From: Streptacidiphilus sp. ASG 303
GTDB taxonomy: Bacteria > Actinomycetota > Actinomycetes > Streptomycetales > Streptomycetaceae
Assembly: GCF_020991365.1 (NCBI RefSeq)
Contig: NZ_JAJLRA010000022.1
Span: 1-64,000 of the forward strand
Direction: 5' to 3'
Length of the DNA: 64,000 bases
Below the pieces are notes generated by a model. The model was not told the DNA's origin and searched no databases. It was given only the letters and a program-made list of their open reading frames with translations. Below are positions 31,565-38,292 of the stretch, piece after piece. A program made the position numbers and the translations under genes. How positions within the stretch are numbered: position 1 is the stretch's first letter; each line of letters begins with the position of its first letter.

Positions 31565-31861
31565 ATGAGCACTCTCGAGCCCGAGCGCGGCCACGGCACC
31601 GGCACCCTCGTCGAGCCGACCCCCCAGGTGTCCAACGGGGACGGCGACCACGAGCGCTTCGCGCACTACGTCCAGAAGGACAAGATCATGGAGAGCGCGC
31701 TCTCCGGTTCGCCGGTGGTCGCGCTCTGCGGCAAGGTCTGGGTCCCGGGCCGCGACCCGAAGAAGTACCCGGTCTGCCCGATGTGCAAGGAGATCTTCGA
31801 GTCGATGCCGCTCGGCGGCGGCGACAAGGACAAGGGCGGCAAGGGCGGCGGCAAGGGCTGA
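31565..31861 (+). CDS. DUF3039 protein, small putative zinc-binding
   Basis: 98 residues. The conserved core is HERFAHYVQKDKIMESALSGSPVVALCGKVWVPGRDPKKYPVCPMCKEIFE. His in ERFAHY plus Cys in ALCGK and the CPMC pair could bind zinc. The tail is Gly/Lys/Asp-rich (GGGDKDKGGKGGGKG). It is a small, actinobacteria-wide family without known function. The ATG is supported by the -10 box 8 nt upstream. Confidence 0.9.
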   Translation: MSTLEPERGHGTGTLVEPTPQVSNGDGDHERFAHYVQKDKIMESALSGSPVVALCGKVWVPGRDPKKYPVCPMCKEIFESMPLGGGDKDKGGKGGGKG

Positions 31862-31905
31862 CGGTCCGCCCTGCCGTCCGGTGCCCCGCGGGGCAGGATG
31901 GCCGT

Positions 31906-33303
31906 ATGGACCTGCTACCCGACCCGCTCGACGCCCACCGGTACGGGGACGGCCAGTGCATCGCCCTCGGGCCCGGCACCGCGCTGTCGGCCGGGCCGGG
32001 CGCCGGGCGGGCCGAGCGGTGGCTGCGCGCCGAGCTGGGCGCGGCCACCGGCCTCCCGCTCCTCCCGCCGGAGGCGGCGTCCGGCGGGTCCGGCGGGCCC
32101 GCCCACGCGGTCAGGCTCGCCGTCCACCCGCTGGTCACCGAGGAGCTGGGACCGGAGGGCTACCAGGTCATGGTGTCGCCCAACGGGGCCGACGTCTTCG
32201 GCGGCGGCCCCGCCGGGGTCTTCTGGGGCGCCCAGACCCTGCGGCAGCTCCTCGGCCCGGACGCCTACCGGCGCGCCCCGCTGGCCGGCCGCTCCTGGCA
32301 CCTGCCCATCTGCCGCATCCAGGACGCGCCCCGCTTCGCCCGGCGCGGCCTGCTGCTCGACGCCGCCCGCCGCTTCCTGCCCCGGCGCGACGTGCTGCGG
32401 TACCTCGACCTGATGGCCGCCCACAAGCTCAACGTGCTCCGGCTCCGCCTCCACCCCGACGCCGTCGCCGCCCCGGCCGAGGGGGCCCCGGCCGGCCCCG
32501 GCGGGGCCCGCGACGGCGTGCCGCACGGAGGCCTGCCGCACGGAGGCCCGGCGCACGGAGGCCGCTACAGCCGTGACGACCTCCGTGAGATCGCCGCGTA
32601 CGCCGCCGAGCGGCAGATCGCCGTCGTCCCTGGCATCGGCCTGCCCGGGACCGGCCCCCCGGGGGCGGACGGGGGCGGCGCGCCCGCCGGGGGGCCCGGA
32701 CCCGGCCCCGCCGCGGAGGCGCTGGAGGAGGTCCGGGAGGTCTTCGGGCACCCCGCCGCCCCCGGCGGCGGGAGCCCCCCGCCCGGGGACGGCGGGTCGT
32801 GGCCGGACGGGGAGGGCGGCGCGGTCCCGGTGCGGTCCGCGGCCGAGGCCGCCGCGGCGGCCGCCGCCGGGCGCGACGTGGTGGTGTGCCCGGAGCAGGC
32901 GCGCCTCGACCGCCCGCGGTCCGGCGCCCGCGACGCGCCCGGGACGGCGGACCGCGTGCTGACGGTCGCCGACGTCTACCGACTCGAACCGGTCCCGCCG
33001 GGGCTGCGCGCCGACCCGGAGGCCGCCCGGCGCGTCGTCGGCGTGCGGGCCGAGCTGTGGAACGAGGCGGCCGGGGACGCCCGCGACCTGGACCGCCTCC
33101 TCTTCCCCCGCCTCGCGGCCTTCGCCGAGGTCGCCTGGTCCCAGCTGCCGGCCGACCCCGCCGAGCGCGACCTCGACGGCTTCGGGCGGCGCCTGGCGGT
33201 CCACCTGGCCCGCCTGGACGCGATGGGCGTGGAGTGCCTGCCGCCCGGGGGCCCGCACGCGTGGCGGCACCGGCCCGGGGAGGCGGGCCGCCCGGCCGTC
33301 TGA
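31906..33303 (+). CDS. GH20 beta-N-acetylhexosaminidase-like protein, catalytic motifs missing
   Basis: 465 residues. It keeps the framework of Streptomyces family GH20 enzymes: N-terminal GH20b-type region (GYQVMVSPNGADVFGGGPAGVFWGAQTLRQLL, PICRIQDAPRFARRGLLLD), DVLRYLDLMAAHKLNVLRLRLH, YSRDDLREIAAYAAERQIAVVP, VVVCPEQ, ELWNEA, FPRLAAFAEVAWSQLP. The expected DDQGW after LRLRLH (H183) is replaced by PDAV; the VPEIDxPGHS strand reads VPGIGLPG; the HxGGDE region is gone, replaced by Gly/Pro/Ala-rich sequence (about 235-320). The frame is intact. It is probably not an active hexosaminidase. A -10-like CAGGAT lies 6 nt before the ATG. Confidence 0.8.
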   Translation: MDLLPDPLDAHRYGDGQCIALGPGTALSAGPGAGRAERWLRAELGAATGLPLLPPEAASGGSGGPAHAVRLAVHPLVTEELGPEGYQVMVSPNGADVFGGGPAGVFWGAQTLRQLLGPDAYRRAPLAGRSWHLPICRIQDAPRFARRGLLLDAARRFLPRRDVLRYLDLMAAHKLNVLRLRLHPDAVAAPAEGAPAGPGGARDGVPHGGLPHGGPAHGGRYSRDDLREIAAYAAERQIAVVPGIGLPGTGPPGADGGGAPAGGPGPGPAAEALEEVREVFGHPAAPGGGSPPPGDGGSWPDGEGGAVPVRSAAEAAAAAAAGRDVVVCPEQARLDRPRSGARDAPGTADRVLTVADVYRLEPVPPGLRADPEAARRVVGVRAELWNEAAGDARDLDRLLFPRLAAFAEVAWSQLPADPAERDLDGFGRRLAVHLARLDAMGVECLPPGGPHAWRHRPGEAGRPAV

Positions 33304-33635
33304 CGCGGGGGCCCGGGGCCGCCGCCCGCCCCCCGGGACCGCCCAGGGGGCCGGGGGTCCGCGGCCGACCGGCCGTCAACCGGCGCGCCGCCCGCCCGGG
33401 GAACCTCCGCCGCGGCCCGTCCGTCAGGACGGGTGTGGTCGCCGGCGTGCCCGGTCCGCCCGGCTTGGGGGGCTTTGGTGCGCGGGCGTGCGCCGGGCGC
33501 GGAGGAGCGCCCCCGCACCCCGTCAATGATCACCGTGCATTGTGTGCCAGAGTTGCCCCGCCCGGAGGGTTTGCACGTACCGTACGGGCGGGGAAGGGGC
33601 GGCTTCGTGAGCGAGCAGAGCGCGGTGAGGACAGG
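33304..33635. promoter_or_regulatory. Region upstream of the molybdenum hydroxylase operon
   Basis: 332 nt. The first part is GC-rich and featureless. A less GC-rich stretch at about 33525-33600 (containing aatgatcaccgtgcattgtg and gtttgcacgtaccgtacggg) is the likely promoter area of the operon. No exact sites assigned. Confidence 0.4.
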
Positions 33636-34544
33636 GTGAACCGGACCATCATGCTGCCGGCCACGCTGGAGGAGGCCGTCGAGGCGCTGGCCGCCGCGCC
33701 GGCCGCCGTCCCGGTCGCCGGCGGCACCGACCTCATGGGCGCCGTCAACGCCGGGCTGCTCCGCCCGCCCGCCCTCGTCGGCCTCGGCCGGATCAGCGAA
33801 CTGCGCGGCTGGCGCTACGAGGACGGCGGCACCGCGGTCCTCGGCGCCGGGCTCACCCACGCCCGCATGGGCCGCCCCGACTTCGCCGCCCTCATCCCCG
33901 GCCTCGCCGACGCCGCCCGCACCGCCGGCCCCCCGCAGATCCGCAACTCCGGCACCCTCGGCGGCAACATCGCCACCGCCGACCCGGCCGGCGACACCCT
34001 CCCCGTGCTCGCCGCCCTGGAGGCCGCCGTCACCCTGACCGGCCCCGCCGGCTCCCGCGAGGTCCCGGTCAGCCACCTGCTCACCGGCCTCGACCCCATG
34101 CGCCCGGGCGAACTCCTCGGCTGGGTGCGGGTGCCGCTGCTGCACGCCCCGCAGGTCTACCTCAAGGCCACCGGCCGCAGCGGGCCCGCCCGCGCCGCCG
34201 CCTCGGTCGCCCTCGTCCTCGACCCGGCCCGCCGCGCCGTCCGCTGCGCGGTGGGCGCCGTCGCCCCGGTGCCGCTGCGGCCGCTGGAGGCCGAGGCGTG
34301 GGTCTCCACCTGCATCGACTGGGACGGCGAGCGCGGCATCGACCCGGCCGCCCTCACCGCCTTCGGCGAGTACGTCGCGGGCGCCTGCGTGCCCGACCCG
34401 CAGGCCCTGGCCGACCCCGGCGGCCCCGCCCCCGGGGCGGGCGACGGACCGGCCCCCGCCGGGGGGCCGCCCGCCGCGGCCCAGCGGCTCCGGCGTACGG
34501 TGGCGGTTCTGGCCCGACGTGCACTGGGGAGGGCGCTCAAGTGA
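33636..34544 (+). CDS. FAD-binding subunit of a molybdenum hydroxylase (CoxM/XdhB-like)
   Basis: 302 residues. It would carry electrons through FAD in a three-subunit xanthine dehydrogenase/aldehyde oxidase-type enzyme. FAD motifs are intact: VPVAGGTDLMGAVNAG near the N-terminus and IRNSGTLGGNIATADPAGD. The C-terminal part (ARAAASVALVLD) fits the CoxM domain. The GTG start at 33636 has gaggacag upstream. Its stop overlaps the next gene's GTG by 4 nt (GTGA), so the operon is translationally coupled. The tail is Pro/Ala/Gly-rich. Confidence 0.9.
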   Translation: MNRTIMLPATLEEAVEALAAAPAAVPVAGGTDLMGAVNAGLLRPPALVGLGRISELRGWRYEDGGTAVLGAGLTHARMGRPDFAALIPGLADAARTAGPPQIRNSGTLGGNIATADPAGDTLPVLAALEAAVTLTGPAGSREVPVSHLLTGLDPMRPGELLGWVRVPLLHAPQVYLKATGRSGPARAAASVALVLDPARRAVRCAVGAVAPVPLRPLEAEAWVSTCIDWDGERGIDPAALTAFGEYVAGACVPDPQALADPGGPAPGAGDGPAPAGGPPAAAQRLRRTVAVLARRALGRALK

Positions 34545-35872
34545 CGGACCACCCGACCCCGGACGGCGGGCAGGACACCGACGCGGCGCAGGGGTACGGC
34601 ACGCCCGCCCCCGGCGGCCCGTACGACGGCGCCCCCCCGTTCGGTGACGCCCCGTTCGCCGACGCCCCCTACGGCGACACCCCGTACGGCGACACCCCCT
34701 ACGCGGCGGAGGAGCCGGGCGCGGAGGAGCACGGCGGGCACGGCACGCCCGCGTACGGGACGCCGGTGGGGGGCGCGGAGCGGCCCTGCGCCTCGTACAC
34801 GCTGCGGGTCAACGGCGCCGACCGCCCGGTGGCCGACGCCTGGATCGGCGAGAGCCTGCTCTTCGTGCTGCGCGAGCGGCTGGGCCTGGCCGGCGCCAAG
34901 GACGGCTGCGAGCAGGGCGAGTGCGGTGCCTGCTCGGTGCAGGTGGACGGCCAGCTGGTGGCCTCCTGCCTCGTGCCCGCGGCCCTCGCCGCGGGCGGCG
35001 ACATCCAGACCGTCGAGGGGCTCGTCGACGACGGCGTGCCCTCCGACGTGCAGCGGGCGCTGGCGGAGAGCGGCGCCGTGCAGTGCGGCTACTGCGTGCC
35101 GGGCCTCGCCATGGCCGTCCACGACCTGCTGCAGCGCAACCACCGGCCGAGCGACGTGGAGGCCCGGGAGGCGCTCTGCGGCAACCTGTGCCGCTGCACC
35201 GGCTACCAGGGCGTCCTGCGGGCCGTCCGCACGGTCGCCGGGGAGCGCGCCGCGGCCGCCGCCGAGCCGGAGCACACCGCCCCCGCGTCCGAGGCGCCCG
35301 CGCAGGCCGACGGCGGCCCGGCCGCCCCCGCGCCGGCGGACCCGGCCCCGGCCGCCCCCGCGGCCGACGCCCCCGATGTCCCCGCGGCCCCCCTTCCGGA
35401 CCCCGGCGCCGAGCCGCCCGTGTACGCGGACGTCCCCCACCCGGGGTTCGAGCCCGCCCCCGGCGGCCCGGCCGCCGCCCCGCCGCCCCCTGCCGAGGTC
35501 GACCCCCTCTTCGGCCCCCTCGACGCCGTCCTGGAGGCCGCCGCGGCCCCGCAGGCCGGCGAGCCCGCCCCCGCCGCCTACGGCACCTACGCGCCCGACC
35601 CCTACGGCACGGGCGTCTACGCCGAGGAGCCGTACGCCGGCGCCTACCACCCCGACCCCTACCGGCAGAGCCACGGCGCGGACACCGCCCCCGTGCCCGA
35701 CCTCTACACGCCGGACGGCCAGGCGGCCTACGATCCCGCGCACGGGCTGGGACCGCAGTACGGCGCGCACCCCGACCACGGGACGCCGCCGTACGGCACC
35801 CCCGCCCCCGACGGCAGCCTCCCCCGGCCCCCGGCCGGGGGGACCCCCACTCCCCAGGATGACCGCGCATGA
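34541..35872 (+). CDS. [2Fe-2S] subunit of a molybdenum hydroxylase with long added tails
   Basis: 443 residues, although CoxS-type subunits are usually about 160. The core (about 83-235) is intact: plant-type ferredoxin cysteines in GCEQGECGACSV with a fourth Cys in VASCLV, and the helical [2Fe-2S] domain CGYCVPG ... CGNLCRCTGYQGV. An N-terminal tail of about 80 residues contains Tyr/Gly/Asp/Pro repeats (YGDTPYGDTPYA). The C-terminal tail of about 200 residues is Pro/Ala-rich with many Tyr (YGTYAPDPYGTGVYAEEPY). Both tails look disordered. It overlaps neighbours by 4 nt at each end (GTGA, ATGA). Confidence 0.9.
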   Translation: MTDHPTPDGGQDTDAAQGYGTPAPGGPYDGAPPFGDAPFADAPYGDTPYGDTPYAAEEPGAEEHGGHGTPAYGTPVGGAERPCASYTLRVNGADRPVADAWIGESLLFVLRERLGLAGAKDGCEQGECGACSVQVDGQLVASCLVPAALAAGGDIQTVEGLVDDGVPSDVQRALAESGAVQCGYCVPGLAMAVHDLLQRNHRPSDVEAREALCGNLCRCTGYQGVLRAVRTVAGERAAAAAEPEHTAPASEAPAQADGGPAAPAPADPAPAAPAADAPDVPAAPLPDPGAEPPVYADVPHPGFEPAPGGPAAAPPPPAEVDPLFGPLDAVLEAAAAPQAGEPAPAAYGTYAPDPYGTGVYAEEPYAGAYHPDPYRQSHGADTAPVPDLYTPDGQAAYDPAHGLGPQYGAHPDHGTPPYGTPAPDGSLPRPPAGGTPTPQDDRA

Positions 35873-38292
35873 CCGCCCCCACCGACACCGCGTCCGGCGC
35901 CCCGGGCGCCGGACCCGCCCCCGAGCCCGGCAGCGCGGCCGGCGGCGTCCTCGGAAACGTGTTCGGAGCCCCGGCCGCCCCGGCCGAGCCCGCGGCCGGC
36001 GCCGCGGCGGAGGAGGCCGCCCCGGAGCCGGAGCCGTTCGGCCTCGGCAGCTCCCCGGTCCGCCAGGACGCCCTGCCCAAGGCCCTGGGCGTCTACCCCT
36101 ACGCCGCCGACCTGTGGGCCGAGGGGCTGCTCTGGGGCGCCGTGCTGCGCTCCCCGCACCCGCACGCCCGCATCGTCTCCGTCGACGCCTCGGCCGCCCT
36201 GGCCCTGCCCGGCGTGCACGCCGTGGTGACCGCCGCCGACCTGCCGTCCGACCACGGGGGCCGCGCCGCCGGGGCCCCGCACGGCCCGGTGATCGCCGAC
36301 CGGCCGGTGCTCGCCGCCGAGGTCGTCCGCCACCAGGGCGAGCCGGTCGCCGCCGTCGCCGCCGACCACCCCGACACCGCCCGGCTGGCCGCGGCCGCCG
36401 TCGCCGTCGAGTACGAGGTGCTGGAGCCGGTCACCGACCCGGAGAAGTCCTTCCACGCCGGTCCGCTGCACCCGGACGGCAACCTCTTCCGCCACCTGCC
36501 GCTGCGCTTCGGCGACCCGGACGCCGTCGGCGACGTGGTGGTGGAGGGCCTGTACCAGGTCGGCCGCCAGGACCCCGCGCCGATCGGCGCCGAGGCGGGC
36601 CTGGCCGTGCCCCGCCCCGACGGCGGCGTGGAGCTGCACGTCGCCTCCACCAACCCGCACGGCGACCGCGACCGCGCCGCCGCCTGCCTGGGCCTGGAGC
36701 CCGACCGGGTGCGGCTGGTCGTCACCGGCGTGCCCGGCGCCACCGCCGACCGCGAGGACCTCTCCTTCCAGGTCACCCTGGCCCTGCTGGCGCTGCGCAC
36801 CGGACGCCCGGTCAAGATGGCGCTCGGCCGCGAGGATTCCTTCCACGCCCACGCCCACCGCCACCCGGCGCTGCTGCGCTACCGCCACCACGCCGACTCC
36901 CTCGGCCACCTGGTCAAGGTGGAGGCGCAGATCCTGCTGGACGGCGGCGCCTACGCCGACGTCTCCAGCGAGGCGCTGGCCGCGGCCGCCGCCTTCTCCG
37001 CCGGGCCCTACGTCGTCCCCCACGTCTTCGTCGACGCCTGGGCCGTGCGCACCAACAACCCGCCCGCCGGCCGCATGCGCGGCGAGGGCGCGCTCCAGGC
37101 GTGCTTCGCCTACGAGTCCCAGCTCGACAAGCTCGCCGCCAAGCTGGGCGTGGACCCGCTGGAGATCCGCCGCCGCAACGCCATGGCCACCGGCGACCTG
37201 ATGCCCACCGGACAGGCCGTCACCTGCCCCGCCCCCGTGGGCGCGCTGCTGGACGCGGTCGCCGCCGAGCCGCTGCCGCCGCTCCCGGTGGACGAGCCCG
37301 ACACCGAGTGGCTGCTGCCGGGCGGCCCGCACGGCGCCGGCGACCCGGCCGCGGTGCGCCGCGGCATCGGCTACGCCGTGGGCATGGTGCACATGCTGGG
37401 CGCCGAGGGCGCCGACGAGGTCTCCACCGCCACCGTCCGCGTGAGCGGCGAGCAGGCCACCGTGATCTGCGCCGCCGTCGACGCGGGCCAGGGCTTCGCC
37501 ACGCTGGCCCGGCAGGTCGTGCAGGACGTGCTGGGCGTCACCGACGTGTGGATCGCGCCCGTCGACACCGACCAGCCCGCCGCCGGGCCCACCGCCCGCG
37601 GCCGCCAGACCTGGGTGTCGGGCGGCGCGGTGGAGAAGGCCGCCCTGATGGTCCGCCACCAGCTGCTCCAGCCCATCGCGGCCAACTTCGGCATGTCCCC
37701 GGAGCTGCTCCAGATCGCCGACGGCAAGATCACCTCGTACGACGGGGTGCTCGGCATGCCGGTCTCCGAGGCGCTGGAGGGCAAGGAGCTCTGGGCCACC
37801 GCCCAGTGCCGCCCCCACCCCACCGAGCCCCTGGACGACGCGGGGCAGGGCGACGCCTTCGTCTCCGTCGCCTTCTGCGCGATGCGGGCCGTGGTCGACG
37901 TGGACATCGAGCTGGGCGCGGTCCGCGTGGTCGACGTGACGGTGGCCCAGGACGTGGGCCGGGCGCTGAACCCGCGCCAGATCGAGGCCCGGATCGAGGC
38001 CGGGGTCACCCAGGGCGTGGGCCTGGCGCTCCTGGAGGAGCTGCAGGCCGAGGACGGCCGCCTGGTCAACCCGTCCTTCACCGGCTACCGGCTGCCGACC
38101 GCGCTGGACACCCCCGAGGTGCGGATCGCGGCGCTGCTGGAGGAGCGCGACGTGGTGGCGAGCTTCGGGGCCAAGGCGGTCGGGGCTGCACCCGCCGTGG
38201 TCGCCCCGGCCGCCGTGGCCGCCGCCGTCCGTGCTGCCACGGGACGGCCCGTCACCCGCCTTCCTGTCCGGCCGCAGGACGCCGTCGTCTGA
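35869..38292 (+). CDS. Molybdopterin-binding subunit of a molybdenum hydroxylase, altered active site
   Basis: 807 residues. Family fold: KALGVYPYAADLWAEGLLWGAVLRSPHPHARI (hammerhead domain), AEVVRHQGEPVAAVAA, AGRMRGEGALQACFAYESQLDKLA, and DAGQGFATLARQVVQDVLGV. The key active-site elements depart from the family: the GGAFG-type loop reads PGATA (289-293); the TQ-type segment reads ASTNPHGDRD; and the C-terminal KAVGE, whose Glu is the catalytic base in xanthine dehydrogenase-type enzymes, reads KAVGA (Ala773). An Ala/Pro-rich N-terminal extension of about 65 residues is added. The substrate is unknown, and activity of the usual kind is doubtful. No XdhC-like maturation gene is adjacent. Confidence 0.88.
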   Translation: MTAPTDTASGAPGAGPAPEPGSAAGGVLGNVFGAPAAPAEPAAGAAAEEAAPEPEPFGLGSSPVRQDALPKALGVYPYAADLWAEGLLWGAVLRSPHPHARIVSVDASAALALPGVHAVVTAADLPSDHGGRAAGAPHGPVIADRPVLAAEVVRHQGEPVAAVAADHPDTARLAAAAVAVEYEVLEPVTDPEKSFHAGPLHPDGNLFRHLPLRFGDPDAVGDVVVEGLYQVGRQDPAPIGAEAGLAVPRPDGGVELHVASTNPHGDRDRAAACLGLEPDRVRLVVTGVPGATADREDLSFQVTLALLALRTGRPVKMALGREDSFHAHAHRHPALLRYRHHADSLGHLVKVEAQILLDGGAYADVSSEALAAAAAFSAGPYVVPHVFVDAWAVRTNNPPAGRMRGEGALQACFAYESQLDKLAAKLGVDPLEIRRRNAMATGDLMPTGQAVTCPAPVGALLDAVAAEPLPPLPVDEPDTEWLLPGGPHGAGDPAAVRRGIGYAVGMVHMLGAEGADEVSTATVRVSGEQATVICAAVDAGQGFATLARQVVQDVLGVTDVWIAPVDTDQPAAGPTARGRQTWVSGGAVEKAALMVRHQLLQPIAANFGMSPELLQIADGKITSYDGVLGMPVSEALEGKELWATAQCRPHPTEPLDDAGQGDAFVSVAFCAMRAVVDVDIELGAVRVVDVTVAQDVGRALNPRQIEARIEAGVTQGVGLALLEELQAEDGRLVNPSFTGYRLPTALDTPEVRIAALLEERDVVASFGAKAVGAAPAVVAPAAVAAAVRAATGRPVTRLPVRPQDAVV

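Follow-up and report, generated by a model that had tools for sequence, protein, structure and literature searches.

A molybdenum hydroxylase-derived operon of the Streptomycetaceae that probably encodes a pseudoenzyme complex

The DNA stretch of Streptacidiphilus sp. ASG 303 analysed here, called the window, comprises positions 1 to 64,000 of contig NZ_JAJLRA010000022.1. It carries an operon for a flavin adenine dinucleotide (FAD) subunit, a [2Fe-2S] subunit and a large subunit of molybdenum hydroxylase type, P0001. Judged from sequence comparison, this operon probably encodes a molybdenum hydroxylase pseudoenzyme complex that has no functional molybdenum and may be kept as a flavin/iron-sulphur redox module. 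The loss of the hydroxylase chemistry itself appears very likely. It is favoured by three findings: the replacements are fixed across a clade that includes the Streptomycetaceae and related lineages, purifying selection acts on the gene, and some genomes keep the complex although they have neither the maturation factor XdhC nor any other MoCoBD_1 protein.

The initial annotation offered two alternatives: the enzyme carries out a different reaction, or it has become an inactive scaffold while the operon is otherwise intact. Both stand as candidates, and the evidence favours lost chemistry with the rest retained.

Replaced active-site residues and their conservation

P0001 is encoded at 35869–38292 on the forward strand by a real gene with an ATG start, 807 codons and a G+C content of 0.98 at third codon positions. 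Its Ald_Xan_dh_C, MoCoBD_1 and MoCoBD_2 domains each score over the Pfam cut-off. The FAD and two-cluster [2Fe-2S] subunits share its operon, as for the xanthine oxidase (XO) family. We regard the 807-residue protein as a former Mo subunit and a putative pseudo-hydroxylase.

The initial annotation singled out three altered motifs, and the comparisons confirm them. Ala773 (38185–38187) in KAVGAAP stands at the position of the catalytic Glu and is aligned by phmmer with Glu869 of 1sij and Glu748 of 7dqx. PGATA takes the place of GGAFG at residues 289–293 (36733–36747). The Gln loop reads ASTNPHG at residues 259–265, AST replacing ATQ or STQ, with Thr at the Gln position followed by Asn (codons 261–262, 36649–36654). 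We take this Gln to sit near the apical Mo ligand. A paralogue in the same genome (48–51% identity to P0001) keeps VATQ, GVGGAFG and GAGEAP. A frameshift hiding the Glu was ruled out, as the reading frame stays in family sequence on both sides.

Other features go beyond that annotation, namely two more replacements, a low-complexity tail on the [2Fe-2S] subunit and the lineage-wide extent of the changes. Codon 406 (37084–37086) specifies Glu at the position of a substrate-stacking Phe, and codon 708 (37990–37992) specifies Arg for a Gln invariant in the intact relatives (27/27). The loops contacting the molybdenum cofactor (Moco) were assigned from a report on 6-hydroxypseudooxynicotine dehydrogenase, Kdh (PMC8305194), and from the structures of XO and aldehyde oxidoreductase.

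The alignment comprised 166 distinct sequences, of which 122 form the core clade and 27 are intact relatives for comparison. All the core sequences have Ala (120) or Ser (2) and none has Glu in the GxGE motif. Thr at the Gln of STQ/ATQ, Pro289 and Glu406 are each present in 122/122, and the GGxFG loop has become PGAxx with Phe292 replaced. The core shares the main replacements throughout, so they are not decay in one strain, and both single-strain decay and sequencing error were ruled out. Asn262 (36652–36654) is peculiar to the window, Asp being present in 121 of the 122 core sequences.

Fourteen positions are fixed (at least 95%) in both the core and the 27 intact relatives but as different residues, and they include 261, 262, 289, 406, 537, 708 and 773 in the presumed cofactor loops. 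The loop positions 292, 293, 541, 576 and 580 show little or no variation in the intact relatives and are variable in the core. At 146 positions one identical residue is fixed in both groups, and 63 positions are at least 98% conserved in the core and below 60% in the intact relatives. The charged residues D262, E406, R708 and E710 form a new pocket set with little or no variation among the core sequences.

Residue counts exclude the window copy L001 (represented by P0001), the fragments L006, L009, L012, L073 and L089, the interrupted L153, the remote XO-family hits L003, L004, L010 and L011, the duplicates L124 and L174, and 15 identical sequences. The excluded L006 and L153 also carry Ala at the Glu position. 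The loci of 14 of the 61 Streptomycetaceae genomes and of 6 of the 14 genomes in the related lineage f3 were read separately, outside the 122.

Each of the 61 family genomes has a match to P0001; the top hit reaches at least 66% identity in 54 of them and 53–56% in the seven of genera g2 and g5. The locus was read in every one, and in place of the Glu there is Ala in 53 genomes, Ser in one (G043, locus L144) and Asp in those seven, none having Glu. The window's genome lies near Peterkaempfera griseoplana, the P0001 relative at locus L012 being 96% identical over the 644 residues read. Two irregular copies were seen. In L153 (genome G016) the large subunit, an open frame of 1104 codons, is interrupted between residues 472 and 482 by an insertion of about 100 residues. 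L172 (genome G101) has a second, partial C-terminal copy (residues 648–806, 65% identity) downstream of the full gene.

The large subunit is under purifying selection. The ratio of nonsynonymous to synonymous substitution rates (dN/dS, Nei–Gojobori) is 0.021–0.148 over 12 close pairs. Within the window's genus it is 0.076–0.110 for the P0001 orthologues, one of the three being a 644-codon fragment, and 0.138–0.204 for intact xanthine dehydrogenase paralogues. Constraint on the former Mo subunit is therefore no weaker than on a presumed working one. The catalytic residues are thus lost across orthologues in a gene conserved by purifying selection, as expected of a pseudoenzyme.

A decaying pseudogene or a sequencing error is hardly credible. 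Loss does happen next door, where the adjoining GH20 gene has lost a catalytic block that a congener keeps. However, the replacements in P0001 are fixed in 122 distinct sequences, dN/dS stays at 0.02–0.15 and the locus is present in 61/61 genomes.

Genomes without XdhC and the graded loss

XdhC-family chaperones are usually needed by this enzyme family (PMC2997495). XdhC was found in 60 of the 61 family genomes but not in G042 (99% complete), which is also the only one of the 61 with a single P0001 match. The G042 copy has Ala at the Glu position, Glu406, Arg708 and the eight cluster cysteines.

A set of 12 selected genomes includes four without XdhC (G042, G091, G072 and G069), and exactly these four have the pseudo-subunit as their only MoCoBD_1 protein. 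The remaining eight have XdhC plus another MoCoBD_1 protein. G091 and G072 had been picked for their single P0001 match, and G069, with two matches, was added with the eight others. The chance of this split, calculated by hand, is 1/495, or 1/165 without the previously known G042, for genomes that were chosen and of which G069 and G072 share a genus. Hence, dependence on an XdhC-type factor, usual though not universal in the XO family, appears absent in 4/12 genomes on this co-occurrence evidence.

The related lineages differ in how much of the active site they keep. All the catalytic motifs are intact in f11 (two genomes, loci L182 and L183). In f2, represented by one genome, the Gln is lost and RGHG is present, with GGAFG and Glu kept. 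GGSxG and an Asp in place of the Glu are found in g2 and g5, and g2 retains the Gln. GGADT with Asp is found in 10/14 f3 genomes, the other 4/14 being strongly degenerate, and the f15 genome (one) reads WDT.

An IQ-TREE phylogeny of 57 sequences gave ultrafast bootstrap values of 100 for the no-Glu clade, for this clade with f2 and for both with f11, and of just 60 and 66 for two nodes within the no-Glu clade. The f11 loci, from the same class, are the complete sequences closest to the no-Glu and f2 group. The tree shows a stepwise loss of the active site from intact relatives.

The gene neighbourhood is partly shared along this series. An MFS gene, a common helicase or both follow the FAD, FeS and Mo genes in g2, g5, f2, f3 and f15 as well as at many core loci; a missing helicase says little, because many loci end ahead of it. 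A related MFS gene also adjoins the intact f11 locus L182 but not L183, a short locus. In the four most degenerate f3 loci (L168, L169, L170 and L215) the match ends at about residue 753–759 of the query, so the C-terminal part is either gone or no longer recognisable. The degenerate loci L168–L170 retain the operon and every cluster cysteine.

A Mo-free redox complex and the readings that compete with it

The operon would encode a heterotrimer of FAD, two-cluster [2Fe-2S] and Mo subunits descended from a molybdenum hydroxylase of the xanthine dehydrogenase type. Its large subunit would no longer bind a functional, sulfurated Moco and would act as a structural support, its pocket rebuilt with the charged residues D262, E406 and R708. 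The FAD/[2Fe-2S] part might act in electron transfer or redox sensing, for instance from NAD(P)H through FAD and [2Fe-2S] to an acceptor. The long extension of the [2Fe-2S] subunit may recruit a partner or organise the complex.

These parts are held with unequal confidence. The whole picture, a Mo-free FAD/[2Fe-2S] redox complex in the core gene set of the Streptomycetaceae with a dead scaffold, a rebuilt pocket and a disordered partner-linking arm, is judged slightly less likely than not. The redox-module role of the FAD/[2Fe-2S] part is proposed tentatively. These bacteria probably use the complex for a redox or scaffold job and not for the old chemistry.

Several findings weigh against the loss of cofactor and chemistry. 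The cofactor-loop residues are partly kept in the core (G540, G542 and R579 in 122 sequences, R404 in 121, Q715 in 120 and Q541 in 103), and Glu406 is a possible substitute base. The related g2, g5, f15 and ten f3 genomes have Asp at the Glu position, so a carboxylate is kept there. The AlphaFold model, made with 40 sequences, has a mean predicted local distance difference test (pLDDT) score of 53.7 and is too poor to use. A genome without Moco synthesis was sought and none was found, MoaA being present in 61/61 and 54/54 genomes. Therefore, the hosts can make molybdopterin, which the complex may still bind.

Mutants of known enzymes bear on the same point. The equivalent Glu is essential in two of them, as E748A of KdhL had no detectable activity (PMC8305194) and E1265Q of mouse AOX1 (mAOX1) was inactive (PMC2671166). 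However, the latter mutant still held 60% Moco (PMC2671166), and Kdh with a mutated Phe or Arg at a cofactor contact is lowered in activity but still active (PMC8305194). Hence, the loss of Glu alone does not imply the loss of the cofactor.

The most serious rival is a new Mo chemistry through Glu406. The protein would still be a Mo enzyme, its Moco held by the kept loops and its lost base replaced by Glu406 or Asp262, and the reaction may need no sulfido ligand and hence no XdhC. Glu406 presumably occupies the place of Phe914 of XO, close to the metal. The invariance of E406 (122/122) and the fixed or nearly fixed T261, D262 and P289 are as expected of a working pocket, and MoaA is in every genome searched. 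The Kdh loop holding the equivalent of position 406 lies about 4 Å from Mo (PMC8305194).

We still judge this rival unlikely. In the core, Phe292, Ser576 and Gln580 are mostly replaced, Gly293 is kept in just 48/122 and Gln541 is variable, while Ser578 has become Gly in 110/122 and Gln708 Arg in 122/122. At position 406 the no-Glu sister lineages have Pro, Ser, Ala, Gly or Phe, and the Glu-retaining f2 has His. Moreover, the complex persists without XdhC.

The initial annotation had named a catalytic Glu elsewhere in the protein and an active orthologue with the same Ala as evidence to look for. A new Glu does exist at position 406, and we count it for the rival above and not as overturning lost chemistry. 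No active orthologue with Ala is reported in the literature retrieved from a collection short of most subscription papers, and none of the titles or abstract openings retrieved describes an XO-family pseudoenzyme complex in Streptomyces.

Another rival is that the pocket has been rebuilt for a different ligand or metal, which would make the complex a redox-coupled sensor or a reductase. The near-invariant D262, E406, R708 and E710 and the 63 core-specific conserved positions speak for it. However, no matching ligand, partner or phenotype is known, and the AlphaFold model is too poor to help. We consider it quite improbable as an account of the operon.

If hydroxylase chemistry and Moco are indeed lost, the label of xanthine dehydrogenase, which annotation likely gives these genes, is wrong for a gene present in all 61 sampled Streptomycetaceae genomes. 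The family would then hold a conserved redox complex without a described counterpart. The graded series, which runs from intact sites through loss of the Gln, then Asp and then Ala in place of the Glu, to strongly degenerate sites, lets the active-site loss of a molybdoenzyme be traced, and the system offers a clean way to test whether the fold can do without Moco.

Operon, subunit extension and neighbouring genes

The operon runs in the order of FAD, FeS and Mo with a 4-bp overlap at each of its two junctions, in line with the tight coupling first noted. The FAD subunit (FAD_binding_5, 302 residues) lies at 33636–34544 on the forward strand, with a match to PF00941 at 1e-41 when 33600–34544 was scanned. 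The [2Fe-2S] subunit (443 residues) follows at 34541–35872 on the same strand and matches Fer2_2 at 8e-26 and Fer2 at 1e-4. Their GTG starts were picked from the sequence. A scan for promoters and terminators around the operon found none, which carries little weight at such G+C.

The claim that the two partner subunits retain their motifs was also borne out, the window's FAD subunit having both AGGTD and GGNIATADPAGD. In a survey of the 12 commonest patterns per group, the eight [2Fe-2S] cysteines were found in 130 core rows (some strains twice) and in f2 (1), g2 (3), g5 (4), f3 (8) and f15 (1). The core largely preserves the FAD motifs, with AGATD for AGGTD in some rows and with 19 core rows being without FAD coverage, and the motifs are looser in g2, g5 and f3.

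The [2Fe-2S] subunit of the window ends in a C-terminal extension of low complexity, rich in Pro, Ala, Gly, Asp and Tyr (35240–35869, forward strand, assigned by composition). A one-sided extension of this kind, at least 143 residues long, is present in 94/94 three-gene core loci (some strains twice), at the N terminus in 41 (39 above 150 residues and two of 143) and at the C terminus in 53, where two values of 926 residues may be misread frames. The two types differ in short motifs, SGE[YF] being found in 30/39 N-type and 0/53 C-type extensions and TPAHG in 38/53 C-type and 1/39 N-type ones. The extension is taken as disordered from its composition. In the window's genus, dN/dS is 0.40 for the tail and 0.15 for the domain.

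Long N-terminal extensions are also found in f2 and g2. To be set against a link with lost catalysis, no extension is seen in L182, L002 or the sampled loci of g5 (one), f3 (two) and f15 (one), so the extension is not strictly tied to the loss of Glu. Among the loci displayed, the arm is N-terminal in those of Streptomyces and Actinacidiphila (L061, L045), with L154 and L157 as further N-type examples. It is C-terminal in the displayed Kitasatospora-like, Streptacidiphilus and window loci, with L013, L018 and L038 as C-type examples, and the recurring short motifs there differ from the N-type ones.

Among named families, the best NCBIfam match of P0001 is the PucD xanthine dehydrogenase TIGR03196, which it covers at profile positions 9–755 of 763 with 629.1 bits against a cut-off of 783.65. 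CoxL TIGR02416 scores 152 against 991.15 bits. Membership of CoxL or XdhA was therefore ruled out. P0001 aligns almost end to end with KdhL (7dqx) and the Desulfovibrio gigas aldehyde oxidoreductase (1sij), which, unlike P0001, have the catalytic Glu (748 and 869, respectively).

The paralogues L002, L007 and L008 of the window's genus resemble P0001 in identity (48–52%) and in having FAD and [2Fe-2S] partner genes. Unlike P0001, they keep ATQ, GGAFG, RGFG and GAGEAP, and XdhC adjoins L002 in the window's genome. The f11 loci L182 and L183 likewise differ from the P0001 operon by their complete set of catalytic motifs, and the FeS subunit of L182 is without the extension.

SCO2940 of S. coelicolor, annotated as a putative xanthine dehydrogenase, may be the orthologue, judging from its annotation and the gene order. 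Its neighbours there presumably include the GH20 gene SCO2943 and murA SCO2949, an arrangement that would match the window, where GH20 and EPSP-synthase-family genes are located upstream of the operon. SCO2940 is listed as a putative oxidoreductase (TIGR category xanthine dehydrogenase, putative) among the proteins with isobaric tag (iTRAQ) data across growth phases (PMC3770449), SCO2939 is listed as a sigma-E target and hypothetical protein (PMC6767563), and a xanthine dehydrogenase is named among gene clusters without detail (PMC13118837).

The GH20 gene of the window, at 31783–33303 on the forward strand, is without the HxGGDE catalytic block, through either an internal deletion or an assembly fault. 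The block is present in 68 of the 72 GH20 open reading frames of related loci and in the congener L194.

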